A DNA stretch of 64,000 nt from an uncultured Flavobacteriaceae bacterium (GTDB taxonomy: Bacteria; Bacteroidota; Bacteroidia; Flavobacteriales; Flavobacteriaceae). Below are positions 2,713 to 40,038 of the stretch, one piece after another. Location: contig CANNBV010000002.1 of assembly GCA_947502975.1 (NCBI GenBank), positions 873,251 to 937,250 of the forward strand, given 5' to 3'. The notes below the pieces were generated by a model. That model worked only from the letters and a program-made list of their open reading frames with translations, was not told the origin of the DNA and searched no databases. A program made the position numbers and the translations under genes. Within the stretch, counting starts at the first letter, position 1. Each line of letters begins with the position of its first letter.

Positions 2713-3433
2713 GATGAATGATAAACAAGAGTTGATTGATAAATACATTCAAGGCGTTTTAAATGAAACTGAGAAAAACTCTTTTGATAAATTATTAAAA
2801 GAAGATGCATCTTTTCGTAAGGATGTAACCTTTCACTCAAATCTTAAAGCGGTTTCGTCTAATCTTGATGAAGCAGACTTTAAAGTCATGATACAAGATA
2901 TTGAGAAACATAATTCTAGAGCAAAAAGGTCTTACACCAAACTTTTAGTAGCTGCAAGTATAGCAATCCTTGTTAGTCTAACTTTTTATTTTACGACTAA
3001 AAACACATATTCAACTGATGCACTTTTTGTAGAGTATTTCGAGCCATATAGAAATGTAATTCAGCCTATTGAGAGAGGAGGTAATGTAATATACGATGAA
3101 AAGTATTTAGCATTTGAGGCTTATGAAAATGAAGACTATGACAAAGCTTTACCTCTTTTTTCAAAATTATATAATGAAACAAAAGCGTCTTATTATCTAT
3201 TTTATAAAGCAAATGTGTTATTGAAATTAGATAGGGCAGAAGAGGCGATACCAATTTTATTAGAACATAGCAAGATGAAAGATACTGTAAGTGAAAAAAC
3301 ACTATGGTATCTCGCTTTAGCATATTTAAAACTTGACGATACAGTTAACGCGAAAAAAACTTTAGAAAGATCTATTTTAAATAGTAGTTACAATAAGGAA
3401 AAGGCAAAAAATTTACTTAATGAACTTAACTAA
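2705..3433 (+). CDS. Anti-sigma-like single-pass membrane protein with TPR-type C-terminus
   Basis: The 242-residue product starts with a short cytoplasmic region (KQELIDKYIQGVLNETEKNSFDKLL) typical of Bacteroidetes anti-sigma proteins. One transmembrane helix follows (about 80-99, LLVAASIAILVSLTFYF), then a periplasmic part with TPR-like helices (YENEDYDKALPLFSKL and WYLALAYLKLDDTVNAKKTLE). The start overlaps the sigma gene by 8 bp, which indicates translational coupling; a second ATG lies three codons downstream. Its last 21 bp overlap the convergent CHAT gene. Inference: it holds the sigma factor at the membrane and its TPR part senses a signal or partner. There is no zinc-binding HxxxCxxC motif, so it is not a ZAS-type anti-sigma. 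Confidence 0.75.
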   Translation: MSKMNDKQELIDKYIQGVLNETEKNSFDKLLKEDASFRKDVTFHSNLKAVSSNLDEADFKVMIQDIEKHNSRAKRSYTKLLVAASIAILVSLTFYFTTKNTYSTDALFVEYFEPYRNVIQPIERGGNVIYDEKYLAFEAYENEDYDKALPLFSKLYNETKASYYLFYKANVLLKLDRAEEAIPILLEHSKMKDTVSEKTLWYLALAYLKLDDTVNAKKTLERSILNSSYNKEKAKNLLNELN

Positions 3434-6400
3434 CTTTTTCCTGAAAAACCAAAGAAAAATTAGTGTAATAAAGATGCTTAATAATAATATAGGATAAGTG
3501 TTTTTTATAGGCTCTGTATTTCCTGAAACTATAAATCCTGCCCAATAATATGGGTGCTTAAGCAAAACATCGTTGGTGTTTTTTAGATAATCTAACTTGG
3601 CTAATCTAAGGGCCTCATCTTTTGGCTGTCCTTTATTTAAGTATTTATACAATGATACCATAAGTAAAGATGTTTCTTTGTCAGGTACACTCCATTTACT
3701 AGTAATTAAGCTGGGTACACCAGCATAAGTAAATGCATTAGAAACATTGATTAAACCTTTGCCTTTAACTAAGTTACCCGACCCCGTATTACAGGCACTC
3801 AATACAGCTAGTTTAGCATTTAAAGGGATACTGTAAAGTTCAGAGGTGAACAGTTTATTATCTTTCTCTTCAGGAGAAAATCTTAGATTAGAGAATTCTG
3901 CATCAATATTATTTATGGTAGAGTGCATAGCAAGGTGAAGCACATCATAGTTTTTTGCCTTTTCAATAAATACTTTTTTATTCGCTTTAGAACCTAAATA
4001 AATATCAGCAGAAAATAATTTGGCAATACTTTTAGCTTCGTTTTGTGCGCCTAAAAGGGCAGAACTATCATGCCTTTTAGTATTTTCCTCTTTATATTTA
4101 GTTTTATACGTAGGAGCAAAAACACCAACTTTATTAAATCTAGATTTTTTAATTCTCTTTTGTTCGTTCCATAATAATAAGGAGGACGTGTAGCTAATAT
4201 TATATTTTTCAATTAAGTGCTTTCCTTCTCCATTTATTAGTACTTCCATAGGAATATAGTGAAGGATGTCATCTAGAATAAAAACAATATTTTTATAGGT
4301 ATTAGCATCTATACCATCTTTTGGTAACAAAAGATCATATGCTTTTTTGGCTAAAACCTTATAATTACTGTTGGGATTAGAAATAGCTACAGCTAGATCT
4401 CTAATTACAGGAACAATCTCTTTTTTGGAACCTATTTTAATTAGTTTTATTTGTGATTTATGTAATAAAAAAGCATATAGGTTTTCGTTTGCAAAAAGGT
4501 ATTTTATTGCAACTTCATTCTTTTTAAATTTTTGTCTAAGTGATTTTATACTGAAACTACTTTTTGTTTGGTTAAAATAAGAAGGGTAGTGTTCTTTGTA
4601 ATATTGGTTTAATTCAATTAGTTCATTCTCAATATTAAATATCTTTTCCTTAAAAACGTCTTTATTTTGAATATTTTCATCATTGGAAATAAATAATGAT
4701 TTTTTATAAAAATGAAGCTCTCTTTTCAGTTTTTTTTCTTTATTCAATATGGAATCTGGAATATTTAAATATTTTTTTTGACTACTTCTAAAAAAGTTTT
4801 CCCAACTAATTTTAGAGCTAGATTCTTCAATTTTTTGTAACACTTCATCTAGCTTTGCGTTGTTTTGTAGTAATATGCTATTGCTTAAAAGCTCACTATT
4901 TATATCTGAAAATAATTTGTAAGTAGCTTCGTTAAAATCAGAGAATAAAAAATTATTTGCAAAAATTTCAGAAGCTATCATGTTTAGGTTATGTGAAATC
5001 TCCAAATAATTTGAATTTTGAGATAAGTTGTATGCTTTTATGTAGTTTTTTGCTGCTACTATTATTAATCTAATAAAGTTATGATCACTGAAGGGTTTTA
5101 ACTTGTCAATTGTTAATTCAGTGAGATTAATATCTTGGTTTTTATCAATAGAAGCTTTAGTAAATACGTCATTATACAAATTTTGCATCTCATCAATATT
5201 TCCATATTCTGCCTGAATATTGGCTTTTGCAGCCATTAAAAACATTAATAAATATTCGCCGTTACGTTGTTTTGCATTTTCAATCCAAGTATCTAGTAGG
5301 TCGCTAGAGTTTTTGTAGTCATGTTCTTTATTATGTAGCTCGATTAAGTTAAGCTTGTCGTTCATTGTAGTTACTGTAACTTCATCTTTAATTTCCAGAT
5401 CAAGTATTTCATTATACAGCGCTTTCGCTTGGTTGCTATTTTTGCTCTTAATAAGGTTTGCTTTAAATCTTAGGGCTTTCATTCTATCAAGAATGACGAA
5501 ATTTTTATAGTATGATAAATTGTGTGGATTATTGTTTTTATCATTAACATCAAAATTATTAGTGAAATTTAATATGCTGTCATTGTAATTTAGTGCTCTG
5601 GTAGTATCGGTTTTTTTAAGAGATAAAAGTGCTTTATTAAAAAGTAAATTAATTTTAGTCCTCCCTTTATATGTTTCATTAAACCAATTACGAGTGCTTT
5701 TCTGATATTTAGCAACAAGTTTCTCACTTTTTAATTGGTACAACGAAGCAGTTCTATAATCTCCATGATTGATATACCATTGTATTAAAGATTTGTAGGC
5801 AATAAACAAATAACTCATATCTGTTGTGTCAGAAGCCAAAGTTTCCCAACGCTTTACAACCTTGAGATAACTTTCTAATTCTAATGTGTAATACCCAATA
5901 AACCCATAGACTACTGCTAGATGATGTTCGTGAATAGCAACGTCTGTATTAAATTCTCCTCTATTTGAGATATCTAATTCTATAGCGCTTTTATAATACT
6001 CAATAACCTTGCTGTAGTCTCCAAATTTCCCATGAGCAAAACCTAGGTCAAATTCAGATTGTGCAACTAATTTATGGTTATAAGCCAAAGTATCTTTAAA
6101 AATAGAATTGCACTTTTTGGCATGTAGTAGTGCCTTATCCCAGTTTAAATTATCATAATATTGCTGATATAGGTATTTATGTAAATGAGCTTTATAAAAT
6201 AAATCTTGTTTTGCTAAACCTTCAATAATTCTAATAGCTTTTTGAGATGATTTAATTGCAGAGTCATACTTCATTTCATGCTGCAAAAACAGAGCATCTG
6301 CTGCATATTTTTTAGATAGAGCAATTTTATAATTAGTACTTAAGGTATCTTTTAATTCCGATAGAATCTTGTTTCTTAAGTGTTTAATATTTTGAAATTC

Positions 6401-6532
6401 GCTGAATGAGTAATATTCTGATTTGTTAAAGAATAAAGAGTCTGCTTTAGCCTCTGTGGAATGTTGGGCAATAATAAAATTAAACTTAAACAGAAAGAAG
6501 ACAAATATCCAGTAATTAAATTTTGAAATCAT
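3413..6532 (-). CDS. TPR-CHAT caspase-like protease, membrane-anchored
   Basis: The 1039-residue product has a signal peptide (FNYWIFVFFLFKFNFIIAQ), then about 600 residues of helical TPR-like repeats. These include FLQHEMKYDSAIKSSQKAI, DLGFAHGKFGDYSKVIEYYK and HEHHLAVVYGFIGYYTLELE. The C-terminal CHAT domain spans about 690-1005. The caspase-like dyad is visible: His870 in LHLAMHS and Cys914 in LSACNTGSG, with the usual HPYYWAGFIVSG near the end. One transmembrane helix (about 1012-1031, YPILLLSIFITLIFLWFF) precedes a basic tail (RKKLVKFIK). The TPR and CHAT parts should therefore lie in the periplasm. CHAT proteases cleave specific partner proteins when the TPR region is triggered. The substrate is unknown; the sigma/anti-sigma pair encoded convergently is a candidate (inference). 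Confidence 0.92.
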   Translation of the reverse strand: MISKFNYWIFVFFLFKFNFIIAQHSTEAKADSLFFNKSEYYSFSEFQNIKHLRNKILSELKDTLSTNYKIALSKKYAADALFLQHEMKYDSAIKSSQKAIRIIEGLAKQDLFYKAHLHKYLYQQYYDNLNWDKALLHAKKCNSIFKDTLAYNHKLVAQSEFDLGFAHGKFGDYSKVIEYYKSAIELDISNRGEFNTDVAIHEHHLAVVYGFIGYYTLELESYLKVVKRWETLASDTTDMSYLFIAYKSLIQWYINHGDYRTASLYQLKSEKLVAKYQKSTRNWFNETYKGRTKINLLFNKALLSLKKTDTTRALNYNDSILNFTNNFDVNDKNNNPHNLSYYKNFVILDRMKALRFKANLIKSKNSNQAKALYNEILDLEIKDEVTVTTMNDKLNLIELHNKEHDYKNSSDLLDTWIENAKQRNGEYLLMFLMAAKANIQAEYGNIDEMQNLYNDVFTKASIDKNQDINLTELTIDKLKPFSDHNFIRLIIVAAKNYIKAYNLSQNSNYLEISHNLNMIASEIFANNFLFSDFNEATYKLFSDINSELLSNSILLQNNAKLDEVLQKIEESSSKISWENFFRSSQKKYLNIPDSILNKEKKLKRELHFYKKSLFISNDENIQNKDVFKEKIFNIENELIELNQYYKEHYPSYFNQTKSSFSIKSLRQKFKKNEVAIKYLFANENLYAFLLHKSQIKLIKIGSKKEIVPVIRDLAVAISNPNSNYKVLAKKAYDLLLPKDGIDANTYKNIVFILDDILHYIPMEVLINGEGKHLIEKYNISYTSSLLLWNEQKRIKKSRFNKVGVFAPTYKTKYKEENTKRHDSSALLGAQNEAKSIAKLFSADIYLGSKANKKVFIEKAKNYDVLHLAMHSTINNIDAEFSNLRFSPEEKDNKLFTSELYSIPLNAKLAVLSACNTGSGNLVKGKGLINVSNAFTYAGVPSLITSKWSVPDKETSLLMVSLYKYLNKGQPKDEALRLAKLDYLKNTNDVLLKHPYYWAGFIVSGNTEPIKNTYPILLLSIFITLIFLWFFRKKLVKFIK

Positions 6533-7199: not shown

Positions 7200-7222
7200 G
7201 CGACCTATTAGGTCGCTTTTCT
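7200..7222 (+). terminator. Rho-independent terminator of the small conserved gene
   Basis: GCGACCT and AGGTCGC form a perfect 7-bp stem with an ATT loop, followed by TTTT. It begins 5 bp after the stop codon and touches the 3' end of the convergent oxyR. Confidence 0.85.
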
Positions 7223-8159
7223 ATTTAGGCAAAGGACTTATAATCTTAACATCTTGAAATTTAATAGCACCTCTAACTATTCCCGCTATTACAGATTGCA
7301 TGGCCTCAATAATTTGCATCTTTAATTCGCTTTTGTGGTAAATGATACTTACCTCTCTTGCCGGGCTTGGTTCTTCAAAATAATGTAAGTTTTCTTGAAC
7401 ATTAGGATTTAAATCTAAAGTATGTAAATAGGGCAGAAGTGTCATGCCTAAACCTTCATTAGACAGTTTTACCAAAGTTTCAATACTGCCACTTTCTAAC
7501 TGGAATTTATCATCTTCATGATTTTTAAAGGCTTTACATAAGTTGATAACACCATCTCTAAAACAATGTCCATCTTCTAAAAGTAGCATATCTTCTATCT
7601 CTAATTCCTCAACTTTAATTCTACCTTTAGTATAAAGTTTATGCCCTTTAGGAATGTAAGCCACAAATGGTTCAAAATATAATACGCGCTCCTTAATACT
7701 TTCATGCTCTAAAGGTGTGGCTGCAATAGCTGCATCCAAATGACCTTCGTTAATACGATTGATGATTTCATCTGTGTTAAGTTCCTCAATCTTTAATTTA
7801 ATTTTGGGATACTTCTTAATAAAAGTTTTCAAGAACATTGGCAGTAGCGTAGGCATAATTGTCGGGATAATTCCCAATTTAAATTCACCACCAATAAACC
7901 CTTTTTGTTGATCTACAATATCCTGAATTCTGTATGATTCATTCACTATGTTCTTGGCTTGCGTAACTATTTTTCTTCCTACATCGGTTAATTCTATAGG
8001 TTTTTTACTTCTGTCGAAAATTAAAATATCGAGCTCGTCCTCTAATTTTTGAATCTGCATACTCAAAGTAGGTTGCGTAACAAAACATTTTTCGGCTGCT
8101 TTGGTAAAGTTTTGGTGTTCTGCAACAGCTAAAACATAGTATAATTGGGTGATTGTCAT
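7221..8159 (-). CDS. oxyR: Hydrogen peroxide-sensing LysR regulator OxyR
   Basis: The 312-residue product has a LysR helix-turn-helix (residues 1-60, NFTKAAEKCFVTQPTLSMQIQKLE) and a substrate-binding-like regulatory domain. Within that domain LLEDGHCFRDGVINLC places cysteines at positions 199 and 208, the same numbering and 9-residue spacing as the redox pair of Escherichia coli OxyR. Thr100 in GIIPTI also fits the peroxide pocket. Peroxide oxidises the pair to a disulfide, switching DNA binding and inducing catalase/peroxidase genes, which are not in this window. Divergent from it is a short terminator-ended region that may encode a small RNA. This is one of the most secure assignments here. 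Confidence 0.95.
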   Translation of the reverse strand: MTITQLYYVLAVAEHQNFTKAAEKCFVTQPTLSMQIQKLEDELDILIFDRSKKPIELTDVGRKIVTQAKNIVNESYRIQDIVDQQKGFIGGEFKLGIIPTIMPTLLPMFLKTFIKKYPKIKLKIEELNTDEIINRINEGHLDAAIAATPLEHESIKERVLYFEPFVAYIPKGHKLYTKGRIKVEELEIEDMLLLEDGHCFRDGVINLCKAFKNHEDDKFQLESGSIETLVKLSNEGLGMTLLPYLHTLDLNPNVQENLHYFEEPSPAREVSIIYHKSELKMQIIEAMQSVIAGIVRGAIKFQDVKIISPLPK

Positions 8160-8361: not shown

Positions 8362-8787
8362 TTAGAATCTAATATTCATTTCTATATCCTCAGAATTTAT
8401 TTCAAATTTTGCAGTAGCAAATTGTGGAGGTCCGTAACTCATTGGGTTATTGGACATACCATAAGATTCTTTAGGTATTCCATTATCTTCAAAATCCATA
8501 GCATTGTTTTCATTCTCATCGTGTAATGCCATAATTGCATAGGTTCCTGGTGTTACGTTTTCAAAAGTTACCGTAATTTTTCCGTCTACTATTTCACTTT
8601 TTGTGTTTTTTATTCCAGGGCCTCTCATAAATGTTTCAGAAGTATGAAGTGCTAATACAACGTTTCCCTTGTTGTTTGTAATATTGTCAATGCTCACGGT
8701 TATCGTCTTTCCGTTTTCTTCAGCTTGTGCATTGCTAAAATTTACTGTTAAAAATAATGCGATAAATAATGTTGTTAAAGTTTTCAT
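8362..8787 (-). CDS. DUF2141 secreted protein
   Basis: The 141-residue product has a signal peptide (MKTLTTLFIALFLTVNFSNAQA) and a single beta-sandwich DUF2141 domain. The family signature is visible as GNVVLALHTSETF, VTPGTYAIMALHDENENNAMDFEDNGIPKESYGMSNN and a final AKFEINSED. The acidic DENENNAMDFED loop looks like a calcium-binding or prealbumin-like loop (inference). A paralogue at 35588 shares the same layout, and both are preceded by the same 52-bp promoter module. The gene ends in a bidirectional terminator. Molecular role unknown. Confidence 0.9.
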   Translation of the reverse strand: MKTLTTLFIALFLTVNFSNAQAEENGKTITVSIDNITNNKGNVVLALHTSETFMRGPGIKNTKSEIVDGKITVTFENVTPGTYAIMALHDENENNAMDFEDNGIPKESYGMSNNPMSYGPPQFATAKFEINSEDIEMNIRF

Positions 8788-8825
8788 GATGTATGGTTTT
8801 AAGTGTTATTTATTATTAAACACTT

Positions 8826-8877
8826 CAAAGATGCGATACGCTTACAGCATTTTATAATTCGAGTTACCGAATTGTAA
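8826..8877 (-). promoter_or_regulatory. 52-bp promoter module, copy A (upstream of DUF2141 gene)
   Basis: Read on the minus strand, the module opens with TTACAATTCGGTA, has AAA at positions 26-28 and GTAAG at 33-37, and ends with CATCTTTG. The last TTTG occupies positions 49-52. The same spacing occurs at 29526-29577 and 35511-35562. The start codon lies 38 bp downstream. Confidence 0.65.
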
Positions 8878-8904
8878 TTTTTTAATGATGAACTGTTAAT
8901 CTTA

Positions 8905-8939
<35 letters not shown>

Positions 8940-11760: not shown

Positions 11761-12966
11761 TTATTGTGAATAAAAAGCTTCTATAAATTTATTTATTTTG
11801 ATGAGACTTTCTTCAGAAAGTTCATCTTTAGTGCGTAGCCATTTAATATAATTGATTAATTGTGCCACATCTTCTTTTTTTCTGCCTGCTTTTCCTGCTA
11901 GTTTTTTAATAAAGACATCATCTAATACTGTAGTATCTATATTAAAGTCAGTTCTAACTTTTTCTAAAAAGTACGTTATTTTTTTCTCAATCAAATTTTT
12001 ATAGTCCTGCGTTTCGATATATAAATTCGATATTGTTTTCACAAAAGCCAAGCTAGTATTTTGCAAAGGTTTTATAATCTTTATAATGCGTTGTCTGCGT
12101 TTTGCATTAAAAATCATGAATAGGAAAAGGAAGATTAAAGCAGTGTACCAGGCCCATCTAAAAGATAATTGCTCTAAAAACCAACTCAAGTTAGATTCCT
12201 CTTCAGCATCACCATAAGCTGTTTGCCGTTTTGAATAGGAATCGAAATATACATCATCATCGGGTAAATACGAGAGTACACTTTCTACATAGCGATATCT
12301 GTCATCTTTTAAAATATGATAGTTTGTAAAGGCTTTTGGTTCGGTATGTAATAGAATTGTACCATCACCAAACGGAATTTTTATAAAGTTTACACGCTTT
12401 TTATCAGTTTCAGCGTAGCCTAAAATAGAATAATTGATACTGTCAAAAGCTGAAAAATAATAGTCACCCTCGTTTTTGTCAACTTGAATTGAGTTTAAAG
12501 ATTTATTATGAAACGATAAATCTGTAATACTGTCTTTCTTTGGATTATATTCAAAATCTACATCAACACCTAGCGTATCATGAAGTCGTTGCGCATAGTA
12601 ATAATCTGAGATAAAGAGTGTATTGCCATCATTAACAAATCCTAAAAGTTTATCCACTGAAAAGTCGGTGAGATAATCAGAATTTCCAATAATAATATAG
12701 TTGCCTTTTGCATGATGATCTCCATAACCAAACTCAGAATTTGCCGTAAGATAACTTGATGGTTGATGATAAACAGTTCTTAATTGATAGTCTTCAAAAA
12801 GTTTAGGAAGCTCTTTATAAAGTACACTAACACCATACGGTTTATTACTTTTTTCGTTGAAGGACTCTTCCCAGTCAATAGTTTTGGTGCGTCTTACTCC
12901 AAAAGTTAATGAAGCTACTATGATGAGTGTTATAATGACTAATATGACAGGTAAAAGCTTCTTCAT
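11761..12966 (-). CDS. DUF4350-type membrane protein of the MoxR operon
   Basis: The 401-residue product has an N-terminal transmembrane helix (residues 3-23) and a periplasmic domain resembling DUF4350. That domain contains NKPYGVSVLYKELPKLFEDY, NYIIIGNSDYLTDFSVDKLLGFVNDGNTLFISD and GDGTILLHTEPKAFTNYHIL. A second transmembrane helix (about 266-286, FRWAWYTALIFLFLFMIF) leads to a basic cytoplasmic tail with helical repeats. DUF4350 looks like a catalytically inactive glutamine-amidotransferase-like fold. The start overlaps the stop of the preceding gene by one base (TAATG), so translation is coupled. Confidence 0.85.
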   Translation of the reverse strand: MKKLLPVILVIITLIIVASLTFGVRRTKTIDWEESFNEKSNKPYGVSVLYKELPKLFEDYQLRTVYHQPSSYLTANSEFGYGDHHAKGNYIIIGNSDYLTDFSVDKLLGFVNDGNTLFISDYYYAQRLHDTLGVDVDFEYNPKKDSITDLSFHNKSLNSIQVDKNEGDYYFSAFDSINYSILGYAETDKKRVNFIKIPFGDGTILLHTEPKAFTNYHILKDDRYRYVESVLSYLPDDDVYFDSYSKRQTAYGDAEEESNLSWFLEQLSFRWAWYTALIFLFLFMIFNAKRRQRIIKIIKPLQNTSLAFVKTISNLYIETQDYKNLIEKKITYFLEKVRTDFNIDTTVLDDVFIKKLAGKAGRKKEDVAQLINYIKWLRTKDELSEESLIKINKFIEAFYSQ

Positions 12967-22466: not shown

Positions 22467-23606
22467 TTATCGAACAAACAATTGTACTTGTGAAACAACA
22501 GAGCCTGGCCCTGGTATACCACCATTGTAGGCATTAACACTTCCTAAAGAATACCACCAATTAGAATGATTAGCAGAACCATCTAAATAAGTGTTAGTAC
22601 TATTTTGTTCTAATCCTCCCCATAAACTTGCTGTGGTATCTATACTAATTGGAATATACCCAGGGACGGGTCGCGAAGGAGAGCCTCCACTTCTAGGATC
22701 AAAAGTTTGGCTCCAATGATTGGTTATTCCTAAACCAGGATAATGCAACCTAAACTCATAAGCGGTCGCACTTTTTAACTCATCTAATTTACTTAAAATA
22801 GAGTACTTGTTAGTAGTTATATTTGGTGAAGCGATATTAAATTCATTAGCTTCTACATCGTTAGCCCAATAGCCACCTACGGTATTATGATTAAACACTA
22901 AAGTCCAACCACCACCATCGTTAGTCATATCACAATAACACTCATATGCGGGGTTGACGCCAGCACCATCAGGATCAATTGTATATACACCATCTGTAGT
23001 AAATCCAGCATCAAAATATGCCAAACAATTAGGTAAAACATTTACTACGCTAATATTAGCGTTACAAGTATCACTTTTACCGGCAAAAGTAATAGTGAAA
23101 TTATCGGTTTGAGCAGACGTTGGAGTACCGGTTCCTGTTAAAGTTATCGTGTTAACACCAATAGAGCTAAAAGCTCCAGATCCAGAAAAACTATAACCAT
23201 TTACAGTATTTGTACTTATCGTATACGTTTCAATAACGTTAACAAGAACATCAATAGTTATAGTATTAGCGGCATTTAAAGGATTGTCAACAGAAAAAGC
23301 ACCATTTGAAGTTATAGAACTGCAATCTAAGGAATTGGTTGGAAACTCGCCTAAACAACCAGACCAGTTAGTCCCATTAAAAAATTGGAAGCATTTACTA
23401 TCGGTGTTAAAAACAAATAAACCTTCTGCAGGATTAACAATGGAACTTATTTGTGCACTTGTCATTCTTGGTGGTAAAAAACCTTGAGTTGTTGATTCTA
23501 TATCTAAAGCAGATGACGGATCTGGATTGGTTGTGCCAATTCCAACTTGAGAAAAACTAACAAAACTAATACATAATAGAATAATTAGGGGCGAAATTTT
23601 ATGCAT
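22467..23606 (-). CDS. Secreted fibrinogen-related-domain protein
   Basis: The 379-residue product has a signal peptide (ISPLIILLCISFVSFSQ). Next comes GIGTTNPDPSSALDIESTTQGFLPPRM, a segment common at the start of large flavobacterial surface proteins. A beta-rich SprB-like or immunoglobulin-like middle follows (about 85-185). The C-terminal half resembles a fibrinogen-related domain: FTTDGVYTIDPDGAG then ECYCDMTNDGGGWTLVFNH, the hallmark CxMxxxGGGWT motif. Such domains bind sugars or acetylated groups. There is no visible type IX sorting domain at the end (QVQLFVR). It is a standalone gene. Confidence 0.82.
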   Translation of the reverse strand: MHKISPLIILLCISFVSFSQVGIGTTNPDPSSALDIESTTQGFLPPRMTSAQISSIVNPAEGLFVFNTDSKCFQFFNGTNWSGCLGEFPTNSLDCSSITSNGAFSVDNPLNAANTITIDVLVNVIETYTISTNTVNGYSFSGSGAFSSIGVNTITLTGTGTPTSAQTDNFTITFAGKSDTCNANISVVNVLPNCLAYFDAGFTTDGVYTIDPDGAGVNPAYECYCDMTNDGGGWTLVFNHNTVGGYWANDVEANEFNIASPNITTNKYSILSKLDELKSATAYEFRLHYPGLGITNHWSQTFDPRSGGSPSRPVPGYIPISIDTTASLWGGLEQNSTNTYLDGSANHSNWWYSLGSVNAYNGGIPGPGSVVSQVQLFVR

Positions 23607-28526: not shown

Positions 28527-29021
28527 TTACGGATTTAATATGTTTCTTAGTTTAGTTTTCGTTCTGTTCATTTTCACTCGCGCATTTACTTCGCTAATAC
28601 CAAGTGTTTCACTTATTTCTCTATAATCTTTGTCTTCTAAATACAAGAAAACAAGTGCTTTTTCAATATCGTTTAGCTTATGTATTGCTTTGTACAATAA
28701 TTTTAACTGTTCCTCTTCTGTATCATCATATTCCTCTGCTTTTATTTTAAAAGATACACCTTCAAAATCTTGTGTGTTTATCCTACGCTTTGATTTTCTG
28801 TAAAGTGTAATTGCAGTATTTAATCCTACTCTATACATCCATGTGCTAAACTTTGCATCACCACGAAATTTTGGATATGCCTTCCAAAGTTGTATGGTTA
28901 TTTCCTGAAACAAATCATTGTGAGCGTCGTAATTATTAGTGTATAATCTACATACTTTATGTATGATGTTTTGATGTTTTTCTAACAATTCAACAAAGCT
29001 ATGTTCTAATTCTGTGTTCAA
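28527..29021 (-). CDS. ECF-type RNA polymerase sigma factor
   Basis: The 164-residue product has region 2 (LFQEITIQLWKAYPKFRGDAKFSTWMYRVGLNTAITLYRKSKRR) and region 4 (LNDIEKALVFLYLEDKDYREISETLGISEVNARVKMNRTKTKLRNIL). These are textbook ECF motifs. The following membrane protein gene begins 3 bp later. It is a different subgroup from the sigma factor at 2173, which has a longer spacer and divergent region 4. Confidence 0.93.
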   Translation of the reverse strand: MNTELEHSFVELLEKHQNIIHKVCRLYTNNYDAHNDLFQEITIQLWKAYPKFRGDAKFSTWMYRVGLNTAITLYRKSKRRINTQDFEGVSFKIKAEEYDDTEEEQLKLLYKAIHKLNDIEKALVFLYLEDKDYREISETLGISEVNARVKMNRTKTKLRNILNP

Positions 29022-29525
29022 AAATTTTGATGGTTTAGTTGTATAATAAGTAGCTTTTAGTTTTTAAATGTTACATTAAAAATGATTTTTTTTCAGAATT
29101 ATTTAACGAAGCGCTATGAGTTTTAAGGAAAATAAATGCTTTTTTTTATTAAAATCTTATAGTTAGACTAAAAGTTTATTTAATTCGGTTAAAATTATTG
29201 ATTTTTAGGTTTTTAACATGTAAGTATAGATAAAATCTATTGGTAGGTTTTGGATAATTTTTATAGATTTTTTTCGAAGAACTTATGCTAATATATAAAA
29301 AAAATAATAGTTGTGATTTTTAGATGTATCACTTCTAATTTAAAAGCTATTCTTATTTTTTTGAATTTTAAAAAGTGATGAATTTTAACTTTGATGAAAG
29401 CATTAAATGATTTAGAATTATAGTTTTTAGAATAGCATGTTTTTAATTTATTTAATATAGCTTCTTTTAAAATTTGATAATAGTTTTTAGAGTGATTTAT
29501 GAAAATACAATTCGTCTTTAAAAAA
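29022..29525. other. Long AT-rich intergenic region
   Basis: About 500 bp of extremely AT-rich DNA with several near-identical phrases such as AATAGTTTTTAGA (two close copies at about 29421 and 29477). No ORF or RNA gene is recognised. It separates divergent genes and likely holds the ECF sigma promoter. Confidence 0.45.
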
Positions 29526-29577
29526 TTACAGTTCGGTAATTGTTAGTTTTAAATGGTAAAGTTCTGTCGCAATTTTG
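29526..29577 (+). promoter_or_regulatory. 52-bp promoter module, copy B (upstream of TonB receptor)
   Basis: Opens with TTACAGTTCGGTA, has AAATG at positions 26-30 and GTAAAG at 31-36, and ends with CAATTTTG with the final G at position 52. The start codon is 31 bp downstream. ACAGTTCGG fits the LytTR-domain binding consensus [TA][AC][CA]GTTN[AG][TG]. Confidence 0.65.
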
Positions 29578-29607
29578 TGTTAACGAAAAATGTATAAATT
29601 TTAAATT

Positions 29608-31761
29608 ATGAAAACTTTACTAACCATTTTAATCACATTTATAATTATCCAAATGCAGGCACAAACCACGATTAGTGGTATAGTTACGAATGTAAAAAAA
29701 GAGCCTATTATTGGAGCAAATGTGTATTTAGAAGGCACCTATGATGGTGGTACAACTGATGAGTATGGTAAGTTTTCATTTTCAACATCTGAAACTGGTT
29801 CTCAAACTCTAATAGTTTCGTTTTTATCCTATGAAACATTTACGATGTTAGGAGATATATCTTATATGAAAGATTTGGAAATTAAGTTGAAAGATGATGT
29901 AAACACGTTAGATGCAGTAGTATTATCTGCTGGTACATTTTCAGCAGGCGATAATAGTAAGGTAAATGTATTAAAACCTTTAGATGTGGTAACGACGGCG
30001 AGTGCATTGGGTGATTTTGTAGGTGCTTTACAAACCTTGCCTGGAACGACAACAGTAGCAGAAGATGGCCGCTTATTTGTACGTGGTGGTGATGCAAACG
30101 AAACACAAATTTTTATTGACGGTATTCGTGTGTTTACACCGTATACACCAACAACCAATAATGCACCAACTCGAGGGCGTTATTCACCGTTTTTATTTGA
30201 CGGTATTACATTTTCTACTGGAGGGTATTCTGCAGAGTATGGTCAAGCATTATCAAGTGTGTTGTTATTAAATACAGTTGATGAACCAGATCAAGAAAAA
30301 ACAGATATTGGCATCATGAGTGTTGGCGCAACTCTTGGAAATACCCAAAAATGGGAGAAAAGTTCTGTGAGTGTTAATGTCTCTTATGTAAATCTTGCGC
30401 CTTATAATGCTATTTTTCCAAATAGAAATAATTTTATCAAGCCTTTTGAAACGGCTTCTGGCGAAGCGGTTTATAGAAGGAAAACGAATTCTGGATTATT
30501 TAAACTTTATGGCGCTTTTGATACGAGTAGTTTCGAATTGACACAAGAAGATATCAATTCACCTGACGGGCAGTATATCAAATTAAATAACAATAATTTC
30601 TATTTGAACGGGTCTTATTCGGGTGTATTAAGCGACACATGGAGCATGCAAACAGGCTTTAGTTTTACTAACGCTAAGAACAAAATAAACTTGGGGGATA
30701 GAGCTATTAGAGATACTGAAAAGTCCCTACATTCTAAATTGAAATTCAAGAACCGAATTAGTAACCGATTTAAATTATATTTTGGAGCAGAATATTTTAA
30801 AACTGATTTTGAGGAGCAATACAACGATGATTTTGTGGATAATGCTACCTATGGTTTTGATAATGATATTGCTGCTGCATTTGTTGAAGCTGATATCTTT
30901 TTATCTAAAGACTTAGCCTTTAAAACAGGGTTAAGAGCAGAGTATAGTGAATTGTTTGATGATTTTACTTTAGCGCCAAGAGCTACGATGGCGTATAAAA
31001 TATCGGATAAAAGTCAGTTGTCTTTAGCATATGGTGACTTTTATCAGAATCCGACCAGTAATGTGTTGAAATTCAATCAAGATTTTGAACCAGCTAATGC
31101 TAAACATTATATTTTGAACTATCAATTCAATGCAGATAGAAAAATATTTAGAGCAGAAGCATATTATAAGGATTATAGCAACTTAGAAAAATTTGATGGT
31201 GATTTTCCAAGTTTTGATAGTAATTTTAGCAGTAATGGTTCAGGTTTTGCAAAGGGTATAGATTTTTTCTGGAGAGATAGTAAAAGCATAAAAAATGTAG
31301 ATTACTGGTTAAGCTATTCGTTTTTAGATACTAAGCGAGATTATAGAAACTTCCCAGAACAAGCTCAGCCCAATTTTGCAAATACACATAATTTCTCAGC
31401 CGTTGCCAAGTATTGGATAGACGATTGGAAAAGTCAGGTTGGATTTAGTTATGGATTTGCTTCAGGAAGAACATTTACCAACCCTAATAAGCCTGGGTTT
31501 TTAAACGAAAAAACAAAAGCATTTAATAGCTTGAGTGTGAATTGGGCATATTTAATAAGTCCGCAAAAAATATTATACGCCTCAGTAAACAATGTATTAG
31601 GATTTAAAAATGTGAATGGTTATCAATATGCCAATACACCAGATGTGAATGGCAATTTTAATCGTCGTGCCTTGCGTCCAGCTTTAGATCAATTCTTTTT
31701 TGTGGGCTTCTTTTGGACAATTAGTGAGGACAAGAAGAGTAATCAGTTAGATAATTTGTAG
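29608..31761 (+). CDS. TonB-dependent outer membrane receptor with carboxypeptidase-like N-domain
   Basis: The 717-residue product has a signal peptide (MKTLLTILITFIIIQMQAQ). Next is a CarboxypepD_reg-like domain (about 22-100, ISGIVTNVKKEPIIGANVYL, TDEYGKFSFSTSETGSQ). A plug domain carries GRLFVRGGDANETQIFIDGI and GGYSAEYGQALSSVLLL, and a 22-stranded-type barrel ends in an aromatic (LDQFFFVGFFWT then a short tail). It imports an unknown ligand, energised by TonB. No SusD-like partner is adjacent, so it is not a SusCD glycan transporter. Its promoter shares the module of two DUF2141 genes. Confidence 0.9.
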   Translation: MKTLLTILITFIIIQMQAQTTISGIVTNVKKEPIIGANVYLEGTYDGGTTDEYGKFSFSTSETGSQTLIVSFLSYETFTMLGDISYMKDLEIKLKDDVNTLDAVVLSAGTFSAGDNSKVNVLKPLDVVTTASALGDFVGALQTLPGTTTVAEDGRLFVRGGDANETQIFIDGIRVFTPYTPTTNNAPTRGRYSPFLFDGITFSTGGYSAEYGQALSSVLLLNTVDEPDQEKTDIGIMSVGATLGNTQKWEKSSVSVNVSYVNLAPYNAIFPNRNNFIKPFETASGEAVYRRKTNSGLFKLYGAFDTSSFELTQEDINSPDGQYIKLNNNNFYLNGSYSGVLSDTWSMQTGFSFTNAKNKINLGDRAIRDTEKSLHSKLKFKNRISNRFKLYFGAEYFKTDFEEQYNDDFVDNATYGFDNDIAAAFVEADIFLSKDLAFKTGLRAEYSELFDDFTLAPRATMAYKISDKSQLSLAYGDFYQNPTSNVLKFNQDFEPANAKHYILNYQFNADRKIFRAEAYYKDYSNLEKFDGDFPSFDSNFSSNGSGFAKGIDFFWRDSKSIKNVDYWLSYSFLDTKRDYRNFPEQAQPNFANTHNFSAVAKYWIDDWKSQVGFSYGFASGRTFTNPNKPGFLNEKTKAFNSLSVNWAYLISPQKILYASVNNVLGFKNVNGYQYANTPDVNGNFNRRALRPALDQFFFVGFFWTISEDKKSNQLDNL

Positions 31762-33587: not shown

Positions 33588-34364
33588 TTATTTATTCCGT
33601 CTTCCGCTACGTCTATTTTCCTTATTTTTAATATAGATATGTTTATATCTAGTATTATTGGGAGCATTACGTTCTTCAACTTCAAACTCACCTATAGATT
33701 TTATTAAAGGTGTTAATTTTTGAAAACCATAGTTCCTAGAATCAAAATTAGGACGCTTTTTTTGTATCAAGCTACCAATATCTCCGAGAAATGCCCAGCC
33801 ATCTTCATCTGATAAATCTTCTATAGAAGACCTGATTAAATGTATTTCTTTTCTAGTAATCTTATCAACTGAAGGCTTTTTGCTAGTTTTTGCATCATCA
33901 TCTTCATCATCATTATCTGTCTTTTCGTTGTCTCTACTTTTCAGGATTTCAATATAAATAAACTTATCGCAGGCTACGATAAATGGGTTTGGTGTTTTCT
34001 TTTCGCCGATACCAATCACTTGCATGCGGGCTTCTCTTAATCGTGTAGCTAAACGTGTAAAATCACTATCACTAGAAACCAAACAAAATCCTTCAACTTT
34101 ATTAGAGTACAAGATATCCATGGCATCAATTATCATAGCAGAGTCTGTGGCATTTTTACCCACTGTGTAACCATATTGCTGTATTGGAGTAATGGCATTT
34201 TCTAATAATACTTTTTTCCATTTACTCAAATGAGGTTTGGTCCAATCCCCATAAATACGCTTTATGGTAGGGTTACCATATTTTGCAATCTCTTCCATCA
34301 TCTCTTTTACATTTCCCGCAGGAATATTATCTCCATCAATTAAAACAGCAAGGTTGATATTCAT
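33588..34364 (-). CDS. NYN-domain (LabA/PIN-like) nuclease with OST-HTH/LOTUS domain
   Basis: The 258-residue product has an N-terminal NYN domain (LAVLIDGDNIPAG, KNATDSAMIIDAMDILYS, GFCLVSSDSDFTRLATRLREA) with conserved acidic residues Asp10, Asp12 and Asp99-type positions for metal binding. An acidic linker (KTDNDDEDDDAKTSKK) leads to a C-terminal LOTUS-like winged helix (KEIHLIRSSIEDLSDEDGWAFLGDIGSLIQK). The ending is basic (NRRSGRRNK). It is probably an RNase or RNA-binding protein. It is a standalone gene with divergent tonB. Confidence 0.92.
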   Translation of the reverse strand: MNINLAVLIDGDNIPAGNVKEMMEEIAKYGNPTIKRIYGDWTKPHLSKWKKVLLENAITPIQQYGYTVGKNATDSAMIIDAMDILYSNKVEGFCLVSSDSDFTRLATRLREARMQVIGIGEKKTPNPFIVACDKFIYIEILKSRDNEKTDNDDEDDDAKTSKKPSVDKITRKEIHLIRSSIEDLSDEDGWAFLGDIGSLIQKKRPNFDSRNYGFQKLTPLIKSIGEFEVEERNAPNNTRYKHIYIKNKENRRSGRRNK

Positions 34365-35460: not shown

Positions 35461-35510
35461 TACTGTTTTGTTTGGTGTTATTAAATAAATTACATTTCAG
35501 GTACATATTT

Positions 35511-35562
35511 TTACAGTTCGGTATGTTCAATTTCGAAAAATCGTAAGTCTAACGGATATTTG
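35511..35562 (+). promoter_or_regulatory. 52-bp promoter module, copy C (upstream of DUF2141/LytTR operon)
   Basis: Opens with TTACAGTTCGGTA, has AAA at positions 26-28 and GTAAG at 33-37, and ends with GATATTTG at position 52. The start codon lies 25 bp downstream. This operon also encodes the LytS-type kinase and, after a repeat, the LytTR regulator, so feedback control is plausible. Confidence 0.65.
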
Positions 35563-35587
35563 TACCGTAATTAAAAAACAAACAATT

Positions 35588-36013
35588 ATGCAACATCTTA
35601 TAAAAATCATCTGCTTTTTTATTTTAAGTACATCATTTGCTATTGCTCAAGAAATTACAGAGAATAGTGTAACCGTTATCATTTCGAATTTAGAAAGTAA
35701 TGAAGGGAAAGTGTATGTAGGACTTTATAATACAGAAGATAGTTTTCTTGGGAAAGGTTATAAATCAACCCATACAAAAATAGAAAACAATACATGTAAA
35801 GTAGTTTTTGAAAACATACCAAATGGTGTTTATGCCATATCTATGTATCATGATGAGAATGATAATAATAAAATGGATACAGGACTATTTGGAATTCCTA
35901 AAGAAGATTATGGATGTTCTAACAATGCTAAAGGTTTTATGGGACCTCCAAAATGGGAAGATGCAAAATTTGAAATTAATAATGAATCAATAACACAACA
36001 TATTAAATTATAA
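35588..36013 (+). CDS. DUF2141 secreted protein (paralogue)
   Basis: The 141-residue product has a signal peptide (LIKIICFFILSTSFAIAQ) and a DUF2141 domain. It shows GKVYVGLYNTEDSF, IPNGVYAISMYHDENDNNKMDTGLFGIPKEDYGCSNNAKGFMGPPKW and AKFEINNES. It is the same length as, and clearly paralogous to, the protein at 8362; here one Cys is added (YGCSNN). It heads a run with a TPR-like protein, a LytS-type kinase and 2TM proteins; its promoter is module copy C. Confidence 0.9.
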   Translation: MQHLIKIICFFILSTSFAIAQEITENSVTVIISNLESNEGKVYVGLYNTEDSFLGKGYKSTHTKIENNTCKVVFENIPNGVYAISMYHDENDNNKMDTGLFGIPKEDYGCSNNAKGFMGPPKWEDAKFEINNESITQHIKL

Positions 36014-36025
36014 AAATCTATTATT

Positions 36026-36649
36026 ATGAAGCATTTAATACTTATCACGGCACTAATAATTTCTGCAATAACATCTGCACAAACAAACTATGAAAAGGGA
36101 ATGCAGAAAGCATTTGAACTGTGGGGACAAAACAAGCCAGCAGAAGCAGCAAATATGTTTGAGCGTATTGCATCGGCAGAACCAGACAATTGGTTACCAC
36201 CATATTGGGCTGCTCAAATAAACATAGTTACTAGTTTTGGAGAGCAAGACAAAGATAAGCTAGCAGCTAAGCTTAAAAAGGGACAAGATTTATTGAATGA
36301 TGCTACCGCAATTTCAAAAAATAATCCAGAAATTATGGTAATGCAAGCATTATTACATACAGCATGGATTGCTTCTGATGGTGCAACATACGGCATGACC
36401 TTATCACCAAAAGTGATAGAATTATATGCTAAAGCAGAAGCGATAGCTCCAGAAAACCCAAGAGTAGTAGCATCAAAAGCAGAATGGAATATTGGCAGTG
36501 CTCAATATTTCGGTCAGGATACCGCTCCATTTTGTAAAGATTTAGAACGTGCTTTAGAACTTTTCGCTAAATTTAAAGCAGAAAGCGAGTTTCACCCAAA
36601 ATGGGGACAAGATCGTGTAGAGCAACTATTAGAATCTTGTAAAAAGTAA
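36026..36649 (+). CDS. Secreted TPR-like helical protein
   Basis: The 207-residue product has a signal peptide (LILITALIISAITSAQ) and helical repeats of TPR type. These include YEKGMQKAFELWGQNKPAEAANMFERIASAEPDNWLPPYWAAQINI and VIELYAKAEAIAPENPRVVASKAEWNIGSAQYFGQD. It is probably periplasmic. The start lies 12 bp after the DUF2141 stop and 22 bp before the kinase, so it belongs to the same operon. Such proteins could present a signal to the membrane kinase (inference). Confidence 0.8.
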   Translation: MKHLILITALIISAITSAQTNYEKGMQKAFELWGQNKPAEAANMFERIASAEPDNWLPPYWAAQINIVTSFGEQDKDKLAAKLKKGQDLLNDATAISKNNPEIMVMQALLHTAWIASDGATYGMTLSPKVIELYAKAEAIAPENPRVVASKAEWNIGSAQYFGQDTAPFCKDLERALELFAKFKAESEFHPKWGQDRVEQLLESCKK

Positions 36650-36671: not shown

Positions 36672-38012
36672 ATGAGAAAATCGATTAAAGATATCATTAT
36701 AACTTTTGCCATTGGATGTGTAGTCTTTGTTATAGGCAATTTTTTATCCGACGGATTCAATTTCAAAGATATCAATGAGTTTTTAATCAATTTCGCATTC
36801 TATCAGTTATATGCCTTTGTTTTGGGTTATACCAATATGTATTTCTTTAATAGAATGAATCGCCTAACCTGGAAAAGAAAAAGTACACTTAAACGGATTG
36901 TCGTTGGAACTGTTGGTGCTACAGTCATTACATTAATAGGACTATTTTTTCTAAGGCTTTTCACTTATTTCGTTTACGGAGGAACATCGGTTGAGGCATT
37001 TTTAGAAAGAGAGCGCTTTGAGTATTATCAATTTGGACTTTGGATTACCTTAGTTATCATAGGCGTGTTTCATGTTATCTATTTTTATAACAGATACCAA
37101 CAAAACAAGCTTAAAGAACAAAAGGTAATAGCAGGAACCGCAAGTGCAAAGTTCGATGCTTTAAAAAATCAGCTAGATCCACATTTTCTATTCAACAGTT
37201 TAAATGTATTAACAAGTTTAATAGAGGAAAACCCGAATCAAGCACAAAAGTTCACAACATCCTTGTCAAAGGTGTATCGCTATGTGTTAGAACAAAAAAA
37301 TAAGGAGTTAGTAACTGTAGATGAAGAATTACAGTTTGCAAAAACCTATATGTCCTTATTAAAAATGCGTTTTGAGGATAGTATTATTTTCACAATGCCA
37401 GAACGGTCCATAAATCCAGAAAGCAGAGTAGTGCCACTATCATTACAACTTCTTCTTGAAAATGCAGTAAAGCATAATATGGTAACTAGCAGTAAGCCTC
37501 TAAACATTAGAATTTATGAAGACGGTGGTAGTTTAGTAGTAGAAAACAATTTACAGCCTAAACAAATAGTAAAAAAGAGCAGTGGCGTTGGGTTAAACAA
37601 TATTATGCAGCGCTATAAACTGCTCACAAAGAAGGAAGTAGACATAAATAAACAAGCAAACAGTTTTGCAGTAGCAATACCAATGCTTACAAAACAAATA
37701 TCAGTCATGAGACAACAAACATCAAATCAAATGGACGACAGTTATTTACGTGCAAGAAACCACGTAGAAGAATTAAAAAACTTTTATTATAGCTTAATAT
37801 CTTACTGTTTAGTAATTCCGTTTCTAATCTTTATAAACTACAGAACATTTTGGAGTTTTCAGTGGTTTTGGTTTCCAATGATAGGTTGGGGTATTGGCTT
37901 AGCCATACAAGCTTTCAAAGTATTCGTAAGCGATAAAACATTTGGTGGAAATTGGGAGCGACGTAAAATTGAGCAGTTTATGCGTGAAGAAGAAGATAAC
38001 CGTTGGAATTAA
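36672..38012 (+). CDS. LytS-family sensor histidine kinase fused to a 2TM domain
   Basis: The 446-residue product has four N-terminal transmembrane helices (about 9-30, 40-60, 76-98 and 115-137). The His_kinase phospho-acceptor region is FDALKNQLDPHFLFNSLNVLTSLIEENPNQAQKF. A HATPase part (LLLENAVKHNM, GVGLNNIMQRYKLL) follows. The C-terminal 2TM domain (about 345-440) reads YLRARNHVEELKNFYYSLISYCLVIP through WGIGLAIQAFKVF and WERRKIEQFMREEEDNRW. The 2TM fusion is shared with the two following proteins. It should phosphorylate the LytTR regulator encoded at the end of the operon. Confidence 0.93.
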   Translation: MRKSIKDIIITFAIGCVVFVIGNFLSDGFNFKDINEFLINFAFYQLYAFVLGYTNMYFFNRMNRLTWKRKSTLKRIVVGTVGATVITLIGLFFLRLFTYFVYGGTSVEAFLERERFEYYQFGLWITLVIIGVFHVIYFYNRYQQNKLKEQKVIAGTASAKFDALKNQLDPHFLFNSLNVLTSLIEENPNQAQKFTTSLSKVYRYVLEQKNKELVTVDEELQFAKTYMSLLKMRFEDSIIFTMPERSINPESRVVPLSLQLLLENAVKHNMVTSSKPLNIRIYEDGGSLVVENNLQPKQIVKKSSGVGLNNIMQRYKLLTKKEVDINKQANSFAVAIPMLTKQISVMRQQTSNQMDDSYLRARNHVEELKNFYYSLISYCLVIPFLIFINYRTFWSFQWFWFPMIGWGIGLAIQAFKVFVSDKTFGGNWERRKIEQFMREEEDNRWN

Positions 38013-38024
38013 GTAACAAACGTT

Positions 38025-38651
38025 ATGAAAGATTTTAGAAAAGAAGAAATTTATATATCTGCTAAAAAGAGAGTAAAAGACATTAAGGGATTTTATTCGC
38101 ATATTTTAGTATACATAATAGTTAATACGTTGTTATCTACTTTAAAAGTTATGCATAGTATTAATAATGGAGAATCTTTTTCTGAAGCTTTCTTTGACAT
38201 AAAAACATTTATGATTTGGATGGCTTGGGCTATAGGTATTATCTTTCATGGATTTGCCGTGTTTAGTGATAGTACAATATCTTTTAAACGCTGGAAAGAC
38301 AAGAAACTTATAGAATTTATTGAAGAAGAAGAGTCACATTTTGGAGTATTTAATAAAAGTAAAAATACGTTTTACAAAAGCGAAATACATTACAATGCCA
38401 GTAAAAGGTTAGAGAATGTAATGGGGTTTTATTGGCACATGTTAGCATATTTAGTAATTAATATTTTTATTTTTTTAATACTTTTTTTTGTTACTAAAAT
38501 TTCTTTTACCGACTGGACTACTTACGCTGCTGCCTTTTTCTGGGGCATAGGTTTAAGTATCCATGCTTTATGTGTTTTTACTAAAAACTTGATATTCAGT
38601 AAATCTTGGGAAGAACGTAAAATGAGGCAGTGGATGCAAGAGGAAAAATAA
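38025..38651 (+). CDS. Tandem 2TM-domain protein (two copies)
   Basis: The 208-residue product contains two 2TM domains in tandem. Copy one (about 10-90) has GFYSHILVYIIVNTLLSTLKV, WMAWAIGIIFHGFAVF and FKRWKDKKLIEFIEEEE. Copy two (about 120-208) has GFYWHMLAYLVINIFIFLIL, WGIGLSIHALCVF and SWEERKMRQWMQEE. Each has two membrane helices and a charged amphipathic tail. The gene follows the kinase by 12 bp. The tails match the kinase's own 2TM domain, so the proteins could associate through this domain (inference). Confidence 0.88.
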   Translation: MKDFRKEEIYISAKKRVKDIKGFYSHILVYIIVNTLLSTLKVMHSINNGESFSEAFFDIKTFMIWMAWAIGIIFHGFAVFSDSTISFKRWKDKKLIEFIEEEESHFGVFNKSKNTFYKSEIHYNASKRLENVMGFYWHMLAYLVINIFIFLILFFVTKISFTDWTTYAAAFFWGIGLSIHALCVFTKNLIFSKSWEERKMRQWMQEEK

Positions 38652-38656
38652 AAATT

Positions 38657-39007
38657 ATGGAATTAAAATATACAATTATGGAAAAATATGATATAGAGCC
38701 ATATGGTAAAAAAGACTTTAGAAATGAAGAAGCTTACCTAAGGGCAGAAAAACGACTTAAAGAGCTTAAAGGCTTCTACTGGCATGCCTTTTGGTACGTT
38801 GCTGTAAATATTTTTATCATCATTATGATAGTTAGCAACGGAGGAAATATAATGCATTACGGTACTTGGTCCACTCCATTTTTTTGGGGTATAGGTTTAG
38901 GGTTCCATGCTATTGGGGTTTTCGGCAAAAATCGTTTATTTGGTAAATCATGGGAAGAGCGAAAAATCAAAGAATTTATGGAAAAAGAGAAACGTGAGTG
39001 GGATTAA
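38657..39007 (+). CDS. Single 2TM-domain protein
   Basis: I use the ATG 5 bp after the preceding stop (116 residues); the in-frame ATG overlapping the previous gene adds only MDARGKIKI, and MEKYDIEP 7 codons later is also possible. One 2TM domain: FRNEEAYLRAEKRLKELKGFYWHAFWYVAVNIFIIIMIV, then FFWGIGLGFHAIGVF and SWEERKIKEFMEKEKREW. This is the third 2TM product in a row (fourth domain with the kinase). It ends just before the dispersed repeat. Confidence 0.88.
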   Translation: MELKYTIMEKYDIEPYGKKDFRNEEAYLRAEKRLKELKGFYWHAFWYVAVNIFIIIMIVSNGGNIMHYGTWSTPFFWGIGLGFHAIGVFGKNRLFGKSWEERKIKEFMEKEKREWD

Positions 39008-39231: not shown

Positions 39232-39273
39232 CTAACAACTAACAACTAACAACTAACAACCATCAACCATCAA
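39232..39273. repeat. Six tandem 7-bp repeats before the LytTR gene
   Basis: Four CTAACAA units and two CCATCAA units run head to tail, ending 9 bp before the regulator start. There is no room for a normal promoter between the array and the gene, so copy number could alter expression or spacing. Confidence 0.9.
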
Positions 39274-39282
39274 CCAAAACCT

Positions 39283-40038
39283 ATGAAAGTAATAATTATA
39301 GAAGACGAAAAACCATCAGCAAGACGCTTACAGCGTATGCTTCAAAGTCTAAATATGAATGTAGAAGTAATGCTGCATTCCGTTGAAGAATCTATAGCAT
39401 GGTTTCAAAATAACATCCACCCGGATTTAATATTTTTAGACATTCAACTAAGTGACGGCTTGTCTTTTGAAATTTTCGAAACCATAGAAATTAAATCTGC
39501 AGTAATTTTTACAACAGCCTATGATGAATATGCTTTACAGGCATTTAAGCTAAATAGTATCGATTATTTATTAAAACCAATTGATGAAGACGATTTAGCC
39601 ATAGCAGTTAAAAAATACCAAGAGCGTCAGCCTCAAAAACAAGCTGTAACACTAGATTTTAACGACATCAAAAAATTATTAGTAAACCCAATTGATCGCG
39701 AATACAAAAAACGTTTTTCTGTAAAAGTTGGGCAGCATTTAAAGCTAATAAATATCGATGACATAGAATGTTTTTACAGCGAAAACAAAGGGACTTATTT
39801 ACATACAACCGATAATAGAAATTATTTAATAGACTCTACTTTAGAACAGCTAGAAGATGAACTTGAACCGCAAATATTTTTCCGCATCAACCGTAAATTT
39901 TTTGTAAACATTAATGCTATAAAAGATATGGTAAGCTATACCAACTCTCGTTTACAAATAAAACTAAACTCATATAATGAACAAGAGGTTATAGTGGCAA
40001 GAGAACGTGTCAAGGATTTTAAGAATTGGTTGGAATAA
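39283..40038 (+). CDS. LytTR-family response regulator
   Basis: The 251-residue product has an N-terminal receiver domain (about 1-120) with IIIEDEKPSARRL, DLIFLDIQLSDGLSFEIF (phospho-Asp about residue 55), FTTAYDEYAL and YLLKPID. A C-terminal LytTR DNA-binding domain (about 145-250) has FSVKVGQHLKLINIDDIECFYSENKGTYLHT, FFRINRKFFVNINAIKDM and RERVKDFKNWL. It is the natural partner of the LytS-like kinase in the same cluster. LytTR domains bind short direct repeats of [TA][AC][CA]GTTN[AG][TG]; such a site heads the promoter module of this operon. Confidence 0.95.
   Translation: MKVIIIEDEKPSARRLQRMLQSLNMNVEVMLHSVEESIAWFQNNIHPDLIFLDIQLSDGLSFEIFETIEIKSAVIFTTAYDEYALQAFKLNSIDYLLKPIDEDDLAIAVKKYQERQPQKQAVTLDFNDIKKLLVNPIDREYKKRFSVKVGQHLKLINIDDIECFYSENKGTYLHTTDNRNYLIDSTLEQLEDELEPQIFFRINRKFFVNINAIKDMVSYTNSRLQIKLNSYNEQEVIVARERVKDFKNWLE

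Follow-up and report, generated by a model that had tools for sequence, protein, structure and literature searches.

A stretch of 64,000 nucleotides from an uncultured Flavobacteriaceae bacterium (the whole of which is called the window below) carries three copies of a composite promoter element that we attribute to a LytTR two-component system, positively autoregulated and widespread in the Flavobacteriaceae, with envelope proteins as its regulon. We infer binding and activation from sequence comparisons, and put the probability of this reading at about 0.88. The full element is formed by two 9-bp direct repeats 12 bp apart, followed after 10 bp by a weak −33 element (TTT) and, 19 bp further, by an off-consensus −7 box. 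The repeats read ACARTTCAT (upstream; core ACARTTC) and ACARTTCGG (downstream); the core of the downstream repeat ends at position 11 of a 52-bp module that an earlier note on this DNA had described, and whose numbering is kept here.

The module had been placed at 8826-8877 on the minus strand (copy A) and at 29526-29577 and 35511-35562 on the plus strand (copies B and C), and inspection of the sequence bears out all three, each with TTACA(A/G)TTCGGTA at positions 1-13, AAA at 26-28 and TTTG at 49-52. The extent of 52 bp was too short, a first half-site being found 21 bp upstream of the second in each copy. In copy A, all on the minus strand, the upstream half-site overlooked by the earlier note, ACAGTTCAT (8888-8896), contains an exact ACARTTC and lies 21 bp from the downstream half-site, ACAATTCGG (8867-8875); the degenerate −33 position (module positions 22-25) is at 8853-8856 and the −7 box, CATCTTTG, at 8826-8833, with a predicted +1 at 8821 (G). 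A perfect 7-bp tandem repeat of GAGACAG (4.9 copies, 8905-8938), which could vary in length, is located about 10 bp upstream of the first half-site of this copy. Copy B, on the plus strand, is formed by ACAATTCGT (29507-29515; also an exact ACARTTC), ACAGTTCGG (29528-29536), TTTT at the −33 position (29547-29550) and the −7 box CAATTTTG (29570-29577), with +1 predicted at 29582 (A). Copy C, also on the plus strand, has one mismatch to ACARTTC in its upstream half-site, ACATTTCAG (35492-35500), and the same downstream half-site as copy B, ACAGTTCGG (35513-35521), followed by a degenerate −33 position (35532-35535) and the −7 box GATATTTG (35555-35562), with a predicted +1 at 35567 (G). These predictions follow from the sigma-A box of F. 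psychrophilum, TAnnTTTG, mapped at −12 to −5 (PMC9723704, partial text): with the box so placed, +1 falls at module position 57, 5 nt after TTTG, T22-T24 fall at −35 to −33, and the repeat cores at −75 to −67 and −54 to −46. A purine is found at position 57 in 172 of 183 sites.

The gene assignments of the earlier note agree with Pfam. Copy A precedes a DUF2141 gene (gene A; 8362-8787, minus strand; Pfam 9.9e-32), copy B a TonB-dependent receptor gene with CarboxypepD_reg and Plug domains (29608-31761, plus strand), and copy C a second DUF2141 gene (gene C; 35588-36013, plus strand; 3.1e-36), which heads the operon of the regulator; these are the only two DUF2141 genes over the family cut-off in the genome, and the module stands before both. 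The operon continues, on the plus strand, with genes for a TPR-like protein (36026-36649; below the Pfam cut-offs, exported-looking by eye), a sensor kinase (His_kinase, PF06580) with a C-terminal 2TM domain (36672-38012), in the translation of which the kinase motifs PHFLFN, N-box and G-box are seen, two 2TM-domain proteins (38025-38651 and 38630-39007) and, 275 nt after the preceding gene, a response regulator with receiver and LytTR domains (39283-40038), the proposed activator. No module is present in the window directly before the regulator gene, a scan of the 275-nt gap found neither a terminator nor a sigma-70 promoter, and TAnnTTTG is absent from the plus strand between 39007 and 39283. 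Since neither module nor terminator was found in the gap, read-through to the regulator gene is assumed. Tandem repeats of 7 bp (CTAACAA and CAACCAT) occupy 39232-39281 within the gap and abut the start codon of the regulator. For DUF2141, the predicted fold has a mean pLDDT of 87; no sequence match was found in the PDB, the best match among solved structures has an E-value of 1.2e-3 and many of the next are generic beta-sandwich or starch-binding folds, matches so weak and generic that we draw no function from them. The window also encodes a CHAT-domain protein (3413-6532), a Fibrinogen_C-like protein (22467-23606) and an NYN/OST-HTH protein (33588-34364).

The geometry of the element was examined in 41 upstream regions (of the first gene of the operon, the receptor gene and DUF2141 gene A) from relatives and the window. 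The 13-mer (up to three mismatches) and TTTG (up to one) were found at the spacing of the earlier note in 34 of them, and in all 34 the best ACARTTC within the 60 bp upstream lies exactly 21 bp before the second half-site, although this half-site played no part in the choice. Among the seven failing regions, the module of one receptor (L069) is interrupted because the called start codon is too far upstream, the region of another receptor (L072) is truncated by the end of its locus, and in the remaining five, L092 among them, a later scan found the site. When the parts of the element were scored apart in 2,489,379 bases of fetched DNA, 146 of 147 repeat pairs had a period of 21 and 118 of 125 −7 boxes had the canonical offset, as against two (period) and six (offset), scattered, in the reversed control. 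The conserved spacing with variable filler between the boxes, as noted earlier for the window, extends to the sites of relatives. The filler motifs themselves fared less well: in relatives the GTAA tract is not conserved and AAA is kept only in part, with an A at position 26 in 70%, and neither is counted here as a feature of the module. Likewise, the view that no good −33 exists stands only in part; the element is weak, with a G at position 25, which would complete TTTG, in only 4 of the 34 modules, but T22, T23 and T24 are kept in 99%, 83% and 73% of 183 sites. The −7 boxes are imperfect, as described: in the same 183 sites A46 and TTT49-51 are found in 100% and G52 in 91%, but in 89% a G or C replaces the T with which TAnnTTTG begins. 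At L092:3412-3869 a module precedes a DUF2141-like frame of only 70 amino acids, followed by a kinase gene; the short frame appears to be a decayed DUF2141. Outside the family, in two others of the same order, a diverged regulator (42-45% identity) is found near repeats with drifted letters (for example ACCATTC and ACGGTTC; L258:6315 and 11858, L259:5183) in which the 21-bp period is kept.

The window has three exact copies of the 13-mer (mean of 0.01 in shuffles, 0 of 100 reaching three), and there are no others in the 4,545,432-bp genome. With up to one mismatch, the genome has 18 matches vs 17 in a backwards control, so the exact copies alone stand out. The 13-mer was rejected as a probe on its own, having produced 43 matches in the window at three mismatches (46 expected) and, as an exact string in 60 genomes including this one, 21 places vs 14 in the control. 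A sequence-only model was built without the window copies: it was trained on 29 modules of relatives, the three window copies and two weak modules (L085 kinase, L087 TPR) of the 34 being left out, and its E-values are rough. The genome scan with this model, as the earlier note had proposed, ranked copies A, B and C first to third (54.8, 52.5 and 49.1 bits), ahead of a fourth site at 31.5 bits and a next match at 17.7 bits; the genome has only these four strong sites. The fourth (G000:C2:865615-865690) is outside the window, 7.6 kb to its left, and precedes a DUF2807 lipoprotein-like gene that is itself directly behind PadR and HAAS-PspC-LiaF-TM-Toastrack genes. The exact pattern ACARTTC-N14-ACARTTC is found at three places in the genome, which are copies A and B and the fourth site; allowing one mismatch, it is found at 16 (seven in the control), with copy C among the 13 that carry the mismatch. 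In the window, the repeat pattern on its own is found four times when one mismatch is tolerated (0.21 expected), once, at 12354-12381, outside any module. Second-tier matches of the model in this genome (17.7 bits and below) are not claimed as members of the regulon. The highest, C1:254881-254950 (L262), with one good half-site before the gene for a 945-residue CarboxypepD_reg protein, may be a weak fifth site.

The same families of genes recur behind the element across the Flavobacteriaceae. In 139 sources (38, 80 and 20 fetched loci plus the window), taken around the regulator or model matches, some of them overlapping and as a set biased to the operon, we found 190 distinct sites of at least 12 bits, of which 182 precede the usual families: the first frame is DUF2141 in 48, TPR in 44, kinase/2TM in 42, receptor in 40 and DUF2807 in eight, the rest being before another frame (two) or no open frame (six). 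The reversed control had no site at 8 bits or above. The kinase/2TM class is composed of 14 frames of kinase length and 28 short, 2TM-like ones; thus, many relatives have a second module close before the regulator, which would carry the feedback to it. Of 80 named loci from many genera of the family, 75 carry at least one site ahead of the regulator and in its orientation. A further 60 sites were picked among the matches listed in the module search of the 149 genomes treated below. Among these listed matches, 44 lie on a different contig from the regulator or at a distance of at least 10 kb, and 37 of the 44 lie before DUF2141 (20), receptor (13) or DUF2807 (four) genes, so that the modules are not at random places, the condition under which the earlier note would have counted its reading as refuted; the 16 nearer ones precede receptor, TPR, kinase/2TM or DUF2141 genes. 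Seven of the 60, again among the matches listed, fall off the target set (five before other frames, two without a frame). Sites outside the set include those before a 351-residue frame, an ABC-ATPase frame and an alpha/beta hydrolase gene (29.5 bits).

Regulator and module also occur together. In 149 genomes of the family, from 148 genera, the regulator (E ≤ 1e-60) was found in 118 and the module (E ≤ 1e-4) in 114; both are present in 112, the regulator only in six, the module only in two and neither in 29 (Fisher p ~1e-22, phylogeny ignored). Fifteen of these genomes had supplied training modules, all of them in the group with both, and without them the counts are 97, 6, 2 and 29. The six with the regulator only are G022, G095, G114, G128, G150 and G163, and the module filters lose weak matches. 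The two with the module only are G085, 88% complete and without a regulator match, and G017, where no regulator orthologue was found (best match, 32% identity). In G017, DUF2141 retains a strong module (L257:8526-9049; 58.8 bits), the 16-kb stretch has no TPR, kinase, 2TM or regulator gene after DUF2141, and the position held by the receptor in relatives has a poor module (23.0 bits); this genome may be a natural case of take-over by a paralogue or of recent loss of the regulator. G017 is one of the observations that would fit binding of the operator by another LytTR protein, or by several, the regulator of the operon not being the main activator. The genome has 27 LytTR domains, and one match of 17.5 bits (C9:23115) is about 1 kb from another LytTR gene (C9:21817), though inside the adjoining kinase gene; of two regions near other LytTR genes, one has a 9.4-bit match inside a kinase gene and the other no site. 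We regard a paralogous binder as unlikely, however, given the tight co-occurrence with this orthologue, the sites upstream of this very regulator in the named loci, and the lack of any other LytTR gene near the four strong sites of the genome.

Published operators of LytTR regulators consist of 9-bp direct repeats with 10-13 bp between them (PMC11347149, partial text); in LytTR regulatory systems the gap is mostly 12 bp and the position is biased to 10 bp upstream of −35 (PMC6193735, partial text). The proximal repeats of AgrA are centred near −60 (PMC4227749, partial text). Here, the two repeats are within the 10-13 bp range, they end about 10 bp upstream of the −33 element, and the regulator is encoded in the operon under their control and co-occurs with them. 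The half-site itself, which the earlier note had likened to the LytTR consensus, may fit the general consensus of the family. Set against published repeats such as ACCACTTAC, in the excerpts available, the resemblance is only loose. As far as those excerpts go, the element shares with AgrA/HdrR-type operators the 9-bp repeats, the 12-bp gap, the distance of about 10 bp to −35/−33, the midpoint near −60 and the autoregulatory position, but differs in the sequence of the repeats, in the Bacteroidota-type −33/−7 promoter and in having envelope proteins as targets. The position of the repeats also bears on whether the regulator might act as a repressor, or in both ways, as the LytTR repressor CoxC, whose operator overlaps −35, would suggest. 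The second repeat here stops 10 bp short of the −33 position and the promoter boxes are off-consensus; moreover, most regulators of the LytTR type act as activators from sites upstream of −35 (both from the available text of PMC11347149), and we judge repression or dual control very unlikely.

A regulator of a different kind is highly improbable. An ECF sigma gene (28527-29021) adjoins copy B, and its place beside the receptor is kept in several relatives; a LysR gene (7221-8159) lies beyond DUF2141 gene A. The −7 box, however, resembles the sigma-A box TAnnTTTG, the specific part of the element is the upstream direct repeat of 21-bp period, and, among the matches listed, 44 sites are far from the operon, before other gene families as well. 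In the segment 27882-29021, the ECF sigma gene is 70-98% identical in the loci of 10 relatives and the gene behind it 39-83% in nine; topoisomerase and pseudouridine synthase neighbours are kept in four. That the copies are the residue of a recent duplication and have no regulatory function, two of the three genes being DUF2141 paralogues, is effectively refuted by the conservation of box spacing and not of filler, by the receptor and DUF2807 targets, unrelated to DUF2141, and by the presence of the element in 75 of the 80 named loci and 114 of the 149 genomes.

The LytTR operon can also be set beside two known kinds of system. In a LytTR Regulatory System (LRS), the partner of the LytTR regulator is an inhibitory membrane protein and not a kinase; the present system, with a kinase and with a receiver domain in its regulator, is not counted as an LRS. 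Promoters of Bacteroides are given as TGTA-19 bp-TATCTTTG, and the LRS-like operons of Bacteroides resemble the present ones in having direct repeats before such a promoter (PMC6193735, Table 3, partial text). Their repeats are of 11 bp with an 11-bp gap and their regulators have transmembrane segments, whereas a receiver-LytTR response regulator with a kinase is found here, a comparison confined to the same partial text. Toastrack/PspC proteins have been connected with envelope stress (PMC11237479, partial text), and there is a likeness to the Lia/PSP envelope-stress systems in that the fourth target encodes DUF2807, a Toastrack family, behind PadR and PspC-type genes. However, the kinase operon differs in being without PspA, PspC and LiaF and in having a LytTR-type regulator, and the link is through one target; with an operon composed of DUF2141, TPR, kinase, 2TM, 2TM and regulator genes and a single PspC-linked target, it is not assigned to the PSP/Lia systems. 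In F. johnsoniae, several lines of a coevolution experiment had hits in a LytTR regulator and its adjoining kinase (FJOH_RS09515/RS09520; PMC10197871, partial text). Our search of the open-access literature, most subscription papers being outside its scope, found no description of this regulon.

The small autoregulated LytTR regulon, which the earlier note had offered as the simplest reading, is thus favoured by the geometry of the operator, by the site upstream of the regulator in the named loci and by the co-occurrence in the 149 genomes. In the model that we propose, the element combines a LytTR operator with a sigma-A promoter that depends on an activator. The 2TM kinase (36672-38012) presumably phosphorylates the response regulator (39283-40038), which would bind directly, as a dimer, to the two direct repeats at −75 to −67 and −54 to −46, on one face of the DNA and two helical turns apart, and would help RNA polymerase to use the weak −33 element (TTT, −35 to −33) and the off-consensus −7 box, with transcription predicted to start at +1 as placed above. 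The G or C at the first base of this box suggests a way in which such promoters would stay off without the activator. The regulator would switch on its own operon, a positive feedback that would reach the regulator gene by read-through, as well as the DUF2141 paralogue, the TonB receptor and the DUF2807 lipoprotein gene outside the window. Because the DUF2141 proteins, the TPR protein, the receptor and DUF2807 appear by eye to be exported or in the outer membrane, and DUF2807 is linked to Toastrack/PspC, a role of the regulon in the cell envelope is likely.

To our knowledge, few activator-dependent promoters have been characterised in the Bacteroidota, and the element described here is a well-defined one that is probably activator-dependent. 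It provides a defined candidate operator for a two-component system whose regulator was found in 118 of the 149 genomes sampled from the family, and ties DUF2141, the 2TM proteins and DUF2807, families still uncharacterised in function, into one regulon. A bolder reading, possible but in our view doubtful, is that the system is a core switch for envelope homeostasis in the Flavobacteriaceae, in which the 2TM kinase and LytTR regulator would sense a disturbance of the envelope and, through one fixed operator-promoter, induce DUF2141, Toastrack proteins and a TonB receptor dedicated to the response. If so, it would be a Bacteroidota counterpart of Lia/Cpx-type responses, and would give first functions to several unknown families.
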